64,000 bases of DNA from the NCBI GenBank assembly GCA_002238825.1, contig MPNC01000001.1, forward strand, positions 558,001 to 622,000, written 5' to 3'. The position numbers were made by a program, and so were the translations under genes. Below, in pieces: positions 5,579-6,568 of the stretch (positions are counted from its first letter, which is position 1; each line of letters opens with the position of its first letter). Under the pieces are notes generated by a model. That model was not told where the DNA came from. It searched no databases and saw nothing but the letters and a program-made list of their open reading frames with translations. The DNA is from SAR202 cluster bacterium bin87 (GTDB lineage Bacteria; Chloroflexota; Dehalococcoidia; Lucifugimonadales; UBA3495).

Positions 5579-5607
5579 TTGACACGCATCTGTGTTGGGT
5601 ATACTAT
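5579..5607 (+). promoter_or_regulatory. Sigma70-type promoter for the candidate ncRNA
   Basis: A perfect -35 TTGACA (5579-5584) is followed by TATACTAT (5600-5607). TATACT gives a 15-base spacer and TACTAT a 17-base spacer. The predicted transcript begins near 5613 and runs rightward into a structured region with no reading frame of its own. Confidence 0.6.
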
Positions 5608-5612
5608 GTATC

Positions 5613-5888
5613 CAAGGTGCTGGGGGTACAGGGAACTCCCACTCACCGCAAACCCGATGGCCAAGCCGTCGTCACAACCGGAGGTTAGAAGTGGTTACGC
5701 TGATTGAGCTGAACCATAGCTGGCATTTCCCCTGTAAGCGCCCTGTCGGCGGGACCTCGGTGGCATGACGATGCTCGGTGGTCGCTGACAGGGTAAAAAC
5801 CCGTCAACCCGACGCATCCTTGGCGAAGGGACGAACGGACGACCAGCAACCGGGGCCTTGACTGTTTATCGGGCCCCGGTTTAGTTTT
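5613..5888 (+). ncRNA. Candidate structured non-coding RNA, family not recognised
   Basis: About 275 nt between a good promoter and an intrinsic terminator, with no convincing reading frame. Visible pairing: TACAGGG 5627-5633 with CCCTGTA 5730-5736 closes a large domain containing small hairpins (AACC-GGAG-GGTT type). A second hairpin pairs CCCTGTC 5741-5747 with GACAGGG 5787-5793, with an inner GACC/GGTC and GCAT/ATGC stem. GACAGGGT can alternatively pair with ACCCGTC just downstream, so mutually exclusive folds are possible. I checked by eye for RNase P, tmRNA, SRP and cobalamin-riboswitch signatures and found none; 6S RNA cannot be excluded. The next gene on the right is convergent, so this is not an obvious 5' leader. 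Confidence 0.5.
5850..5888 (+). terminator. Intrinsic terminator of the candidate ncRNA
   Basis: CCGGGGCC (5850-5857) and GGCCCCGG (5872-5879) form an 8-bp GC stem followed by TTTAGTTTT. The T-run lies only on the plus-strand side, which fixes the direction. Confidence 0.75.
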
Positions 5889-5923: not shown

Positions 5924-6568
5924 CTAGCCGGCCCCGGACGCTCTCAGCGCCGCCTGGTATTGCTCCGGCGTGTTGACGTCCCACAGCAACTCCGGCGCGC
6001 CCAGTTCCACCCTCTGCGTCGCCTCCCGATGCCTCTCCGTGACCGCTCGCATACCCTGCGTCTGCTCGTCGATGGCGATCAGCTCGTGGCAGAGACTGCG
6101 GCTCACGATTATGGGATGCCCTCCCTTGCCGTCGCAGGTTGGTATCGTGATGAGCTTGCCACTCGCGCTTCGATGGGCATCCAGCGCCTGCCGGATGACG
6201 CCGGCCGAGCGTGGCTGGTCCACGTTCAGCATCATGATGGCGCCGTTTGCTCCCACCCCCGGCATGACGCCGTTGAGCCCGGCCCTGATCGAAGTGGTCT
6301 TGCCCAGCGCATAGTCGGAGTTGATCACCCAGCGGACGCTCCCCAACTCGTAGACTTCCCGGTTCGCGCCGATGCGAGCCTGGAGTTCATCCGACCGGTG
6401 CCCGAGCACCACCACCACCTCGTCCGCTCCCGCCTCGCGCAACGCAACGATCTGGTGGATGATCAATGACCGGCCGTGCCAATCCAGCAGCGCCTTCAAC
6501 TGGCCCATCCGCCGCGACACGCCGGCGGCCAGCAATATCGCCGACGTAAATGCCGATGCCTTAGGCAT
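5924..6568 (-). CDS. MocA/MobA-like NTP transferase (molybdenum cofactor nucleotidyltransferase family)
   Basis: A 214-residue nucleotidyltransferase of the GT-A/MobA-like fold. The N-terminal signature LLAAGVSRRMGQLKALLDW is the nucleotide-binding loop with its conserved lysine, and MMLNVDQPR supplies the metal-binding Asp. Members such as MocA transfer CMP to molybdopterin, making the MCD form used by xanthine-dehydrogenase-type enzymes. That fits the XdhC-type maturation gene on the same strand at 7821-8957, but no MCD enzyme is in the window. It could alternatively act on another phosphorylated substrate. The start is ATG at 6568; the C-terminus is a normal length. Confidence 0.75.
   Translation of the reverse strand: MPKASAFTSAILLAAGVSRRMGQLKALLDWHGRSLIIHQIVALREAGADEVVVVLGHRSDELQARIGANREVYELGSVRWVINSDYALGKTTSIRAGLNGVMPGVGANGAIMMLNVDQPRSAGVIRQALDAHRSASGKLITIPTCDGKGGHPIIVSRSLCHELIAIDEQTQGMRAVTERHREATQRVELGAPELLWDVNTPEQYQAALRASGAG

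Follow-up and report, generated by a model that had tools for sequence, protein, structure and literature searches.

Positions 5579 to 5888 of the window (the whole stretch of 64,000 nucleotides that was analysed) hold what we read, with a probability of about 0.55, as an autonomous micro-peptide gene carried on a structured mRNA. As judged from its sequence, the element is an independent structured transcript. A sequence-only reading had described this transcript as non-coding; it had overlooked a 25-codon open reading frame (ORF) with a perfect Shine-Dalgarno sequence (SD), in which purifying selection on the amino acids can be detected. The features of the locus are the following, in window positions.

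5579..5607, plus strand: promoter (consensus scan), TTGACA at 5579-5584, with -10 TATACT at 5600-5605 or TACTAT at 5602-5607
5616..5647, plus strand: hairpin H1, in the 5' UTR, GGTGCTGGGG...CCCACTCACC
5655..5673, plus strand: hairpin H2, in the 5' UTR, 96.7% of cells paired
5680..5685, plus strand: perfect Shine-Dalgarno GGAGGT, 5 nt before the start codon, with GGAGG in 24/24 copies
5691..5768, plus strand: short ORF, GTG start, TGA stop at 5766-5768, 25 codons, 25 aa, MVTLIELNHSWHFPCKRPVGGTSVA
5741..5793, plus strand: long hairpin H4, CCCTGTCGGCG / CGCTGACAGGG
5848..5888, plus strand: strong intrinsic terminator, AACCGGGGCC...GGCCCCGGTT, then TTTAGTTTT
5924-6568, minus strand: right neighbour, MobA-like NTP transferase, convergent
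Left side, divergent: left neighbour, luciferase-like monooxygenase

The perfect TTGACA and good -10 of the earlier reading hold up, with 0.2 promoter-like sites expected by chance in the consensus scan. Two -10 hexamers follow the TTGACA, TATACT at a spacer of 15 and TACTAT at a spacer of 17 (10/12 matches). A 15-nt spacing is unusual for sigma-70. Almost every copy in the genus alignment keeps the TTGACA ... TATAnT block, where the best TATAnT stands 15 nt past TTGACA and a weaker hexamer at 17 nt. The strong terminator claimed for the other end was found as well. Of 38 order-wide relatives, 27 have a terminator 3' of the ORF, against an expectation of 1.7 by mononucleotide shuffling; it mostly falls between +210 and +270, counted from the start codon. 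An upstream promoter of at least 9/12 is present in 15 of the 38 (1.4 expected).

The right neighbour lies on the minus strand and is therefore convergent to the RNA gene, in agreement with the earlier statement that the RNA is no leader of that gene. In several genera, the orthologues found at this locus likewise have a convergent gene beside them, and the downstream neighbour differs between lineages, so that no downstream gene is conserved (neighbours were simple ORF picks, hence only clear cases were used). At several loci of other families (L128-L132, L135, L164), the gene sits 3' of a RarA-like gene on the same strand and faces a convergent MFS, amidohydrolase or threonine aldolase-like gene, all of these being named by reading the sequence.

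When 60 related genomes were searched at the DNA level, 24 copies turned up in 15 genomes, all MAGs of Dehalococcoidia or Chloroflexota: the 14 genomes of the genus, own genome included, and one from another genus of the family. Copy number ranges from one to three per genome, and the own genome has its second copy at C27:81522-81700. Promoter, two 5' hairpins, GGAGG and hairpin H4 are common to the aligned copies. The reading frame is intact in 24/24 of them, mostly with a GTG start; both exceptions are ATG, one in L023 and the other in L013, where it arises from a one-base deletion. Along a minimum spanning tree of the 24 copies, codons with a single change showed 40 synonymous and 25 nonsynonymous changes, a rough omega of 0.19 given a neutral ratio of about 3.2 nonsynonymous per synonymous. 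The observed amino-acid similarity was reached by 0/1000 column shuffles (z 4.8). Because the 24 copies came from nucleotide similarity alone, this coding test is not biased by the peptide. By these comparisons, the ORF is evolving as a coding sequence, under purifying selection at the amino-acid level. An upstream ORF across H1 and H2 was rejected, as indels between copies break its frame. Programmed frameshifting was considered because H4 begins about 7 nt past the Pro codon; no convincing slippery heptamer was seen there by eye.

The copies fall into several paralogue types. A-type copies, which include the window copy, and C-type copies lack the 3' domain described below and terminate near +157 and +141, respectively. 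B-type copies, found at the same locus in the genus, mostly have a longer 3' region; where a terminator was found in them, it lies near +240. In 5/5 genomes having it, the C-type (L017-L021, L033-L037) is followed at a distance of some 300 nt by a Usp-like gene, with a terminator between the two in four of the five; one of these genes was tested with Pfam. The D-type (L015, L023, L024, L169) keeps MVSLITLN(H/Y)RW and the H4 arm, has Gly-Asp in place of Phe-Pro and ends in Ala-rich tails; even the core of the peptide is therefore not invariant. Close to the end of a contig, one genome (G006) carries a tandem pair separated by about 520 nt (L029, on C1 near 3968082-3968754), one copy of which has a longer ORF tail (42 aa).

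Beyond the genus, two weak matches came from a covariance model built on the genus copies of the RNA; in both, a strong SD precedes an ORF that encodes a similar peptide. Another weak match (L058) was discarded, having no such ORF at the match site; the same genome has a separate, genuine-looking copy (L231). With a peptide profile, relatives were detected across the order, at E down to about 1e-12. The refined profile, at E <= 0.005, reached 83/250 genomes and 45/97 genera of the order, a few of the weakest matches among the 83 genomes being possibly false. Such a patchy distribution speaks against an essential role. In the same class outside the order, convincing copies were found in two families (f64 and f91), and none of the other matches inspected there looked genuine. 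No further convincing copy came from 301 genomes sampled evenly across the phylum, and a Desulfurobacterium match (L081) seems to be a chance match within an ordinary coding region.

The order-wide set was picked by peptide similarity, and its amino-acid conservation is therefore partly ascertained; SD, H4, P5, P7 and terminators lay outside the selection. GGAGG or a close variant stands a few nt before an ATG, GTG or TTG in nearly all strong matches inspected. The core of the peptide is M[VI]xx[FY][VE]xNHxW[HK]FP, encoded with varied synonymous codons across the family (four for Val, five for Leu, two each for His and Phe). Past the Pro codon, bases rather than amino acids are held (NNC CCY GCY GGY), because they build the 5' arm of H4. 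Order-wide, the conserved MV, NH and FP coincide with the pairing of the start codon and SD, so that protein and RNA constraints are not fully separable at these residues.

We then come to the RNA itself. Folding of the transcript beats 200/200 shuffles (z -3.2). Among the 24 genus-level copies, H1 shows double changes in 4/9 pairs with 99.1% of cells paired, and H2 covaries weakly, with one doubly changed pair. H1, H2 and H4 taken together are 97.7% paired in these close copies and score 0.287 versus 0.181 for shuffles; on weaker measures of the same set, the number of double-change pairs was reached by 25/500 shuffles and that of pair types by 76/500. In the window copy, the 5' arm of H4 overlaps the last codons of the ORF and the stop codon lies inside the hairpin. 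An alignment of 42 order-wide relatives, built from sequence only, gave double changes in 9/10 pairs of H4, and a search over all column pairs ranked those of H4 and P7 at the top. The start-codon hairpin covaries weakly by itself (2/4 pairs, n=42). Combined with H4, P5 and P7, it forms a structure of 28 pairs, 25 of them with double changes and 87.2% of cells paired, whose covariation is 0.388 versus 0.235 when shuffled (reached by 0/500) and at most 0.146 when slid. Both H4 and the 3' domain (P5/P7) are supported by this covariation, as measured across the aligned genomes. At three loci (L186, L188, L122), the 3' domain could take two folds, in which either GGCCCCGC upstream or a local GGGCCCC would pair with the same GCGGGGCC; the local GGGCCCC form precedes a T-rich sequence.

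A switch between competing folds had been proposed for the window RNA. The CCCTGT and (G/T)ACAGGG segments invoked for it do exist, to within a base of where they had been placed, and one of the stems, GACAGGG with the second CCCTGT, is H4 and covaries. The two alternatives tested by counts do not: TACAGGG/CCCTGTA covaries no better than shuffles, and GACAGGG with the first CCCTGT shows no double change at all. The proposal also included a pairing of GACAGGGT with ACCCGTC. With no excess covariation over shuffles in the two competing pairings counted, the switch finds no support.

No familiar RNA class had been recognised in the element, and the searches agree. The window copy has no match at threshold in Rfam, and none near threshold was seen there or in 11 relatives; gathering and permissive thresholds returned chance-level matches only. 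The 6S RNA covariance model (RF00013) gave 0 matches at E <= 10 in the whole genome, the same search being positive in 8/14 control genomes. 6S RNA has a long closing stem with one central bubble mimicking an open promoter. Like the window RNA, it stands alone, is structured, has a similar length and can occur in several copies, but the window RNA has an ORF under selection, and its consensus consists of separate hairpins H1, H2 and H4 (P5/P7 in relatives) with no single long closing stem. tmRNA (RF00023) has tRNA-like ends and a tag ORF without its own SD; it was rejected, since the window ORF has its own SD and start codon, and the genome has a normal tmRNA at another place (C42:104280-104635, E 7e-50). 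Chloroflexi-1 RNA (RF01698), reported from Chloroflexus aggregans (PMC2864571), is likewise a candidate structured RNA of the same phylum, but neither the window RNA nor the 11 relatives scanned match RF01698 in Rfam. For the peptide, Pfam and NCBIfam gave 0 families at E <= 10, PDB gave 0 matching chains, and tblastn against plasmids gave no match. No description of this RNA or peptide was found in the accessible portions of the literature on Dehalococcoidia small proteins and Chloroflexi RNAs.

The extent of the conserved product can be read from short natural forms. Three genomes of different families close the frame early: the peptides of G044, G078 and G087 end in ...WIFPS, ...WKFPS and ...WIYPC. 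Their stop codons lie only one or two nt ahead of the H4 region, which leaves about 15 residues. Past these stops, the RNA still has a stem, of 14 pairs in G087 and shorter or less regular in the other two genomes, and then a terminator. It follows that the first 14-15 residues form the conserved unit, and that H4 must owe its retention to a role of the RNA.

Comparison of the copies thus establishes the gene boundaries, an ORF under amino-acid selection, a conserved SD and the lack of a conserved downstream gene, at the level at which genomes can speak; transcription and translation in the cell would be expected to follow. In the favoured reading, of an autonomous micro-peptide gene, RNA polymerase would start near 5613 and stop at the terminator near 5888, giving an mRNA of about 275 nt; in relatives keeping the extra 3' domain, its length would be about 300-330 nt. 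The ribosome would open the weak hairpin in which the start codon is paired to the Asn-His codons, translate the conserved 14-15 residues and then reach the base of the stable H4, 19 nt past the start of the Trp codon. Some ORFs would end at this base, and others would read a variable tail through the H4 arm. The N-terminal 14-15 residues are the conserved product, which would probably act in trans as a small peptide, and H4 and the terminator would set the 3' boundary and the stability of the message.

The fixed spacing of H4 and the position of the short-form stops also suit a pausing of the ribosome at H4, which leads to the first alternative, a nascent-chain riboregulator. Here FVLNHxWxFP would slow or stall the ribosome at codon 14-15, set against H4, and the stalled ribosome would alter the fold, lifetime or partners of the RNA, so that the RNA, and not the free peptide, is the effector. 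Since no gene follows, such a device would work in trans. In its favour, the Trp codon and H4 are a fixed number of nucleotides apart (19 nt in 39/42 relatives, 18 in three), H4 comes right after the conserved residues, the tail beyond them varying from none to about 40 residues, the stop codon of the three short forms lies where a stalled ribosome would sit, and the 3' domain P5/P7 covaries. Against it, the A and C paralogue types, window copy included, lack the 3' domain, and no alternative fold tested covaries; moreover, the motif is like no arrest peptide that we know of. We hold this alternative to be rather unlikely, at something under half the weight of the micro-peptide gene. Its more specific form, a trans-acting RNA gated by its own nascent 14-15-residue chain, with the ribosome parked at a fixed distance from H4 and no cis-regulated gene, seems slightly less likely still.

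A dual-function sRNA, whose unpaired parts would base-pair with target mRNAs while the peptide is a second product, appears improbable. The locus does resemble one: the promoter and the terminator enrichment point to an independent, terminated short transcript, amino-acid selection and the conserved SD point to a translated short ORF, up to three paralogues occur per genome, and covarying helices lie in a domain outside the ORF. However, apart from the ORF and SD, the alignments contain no unpaired stretch that is conserved as a seed would be, and the most conserved bases are coding or helical.

Least credible, with only a slim chance, is a leader peptide or attenuator of a downstream gene, the window copy being a stranded remnant: the ORF, hairpin and terminator do look like an attenuator and the C paralogue consistently precedes its Usp-like gene, but it is the only type to do so, the window-locus orthologues face convergent genes and their downstream neighbours vary, as seen above, and no antiterminator that would pair with the final terminator was seen to be conserved.

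Among described systems, the window gene would work most like small-protein-encoding sRNAs or trans-acting leader peptides, by analogy. Bacterial sRNAs of the SgrS/SgrT type encode small proteins (PMC4021124; for sRNA peptide coding, PMC5521070). Like the window gene, they are short structured RNAs, transcribed and terminated independently, that carry an SD and a short ORF inside. They differ in that the peptide can here be about 15 residues and the end of the ORF is built into a covarying hairpin; no sequence relation is known, and base pairing by the window RNA is only hypothetical. The trans-acting leader peptide peTrpL of Sinorhizobium meliloti, with its attenuator sRNA rnTrpL (PMC7298713), is likewise very short, conserved and encoded on a structured RNA that ends in a terminator, and the window peptide too is possibly trans-acting; peTrpL, however, comes from the transcription attenuator of a biosynthetic operon, whereas no conserved gene follows the window gene.

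The finding, then, is a family of RNA and peptide absent from Rfam, Pfam and NCBIfam and spread over one order of Dehalococcoidia (Chloroflexota). ORFs this short normally escape gene callers. In this family, amino-acid selection on a previously unnamed peptide, as short as about 15 residues, is found together with covariation in the RNA that carries it, and the natural variants that stop exactly before H4 would offer a ready-made test between a free product and an action on the ribosome.
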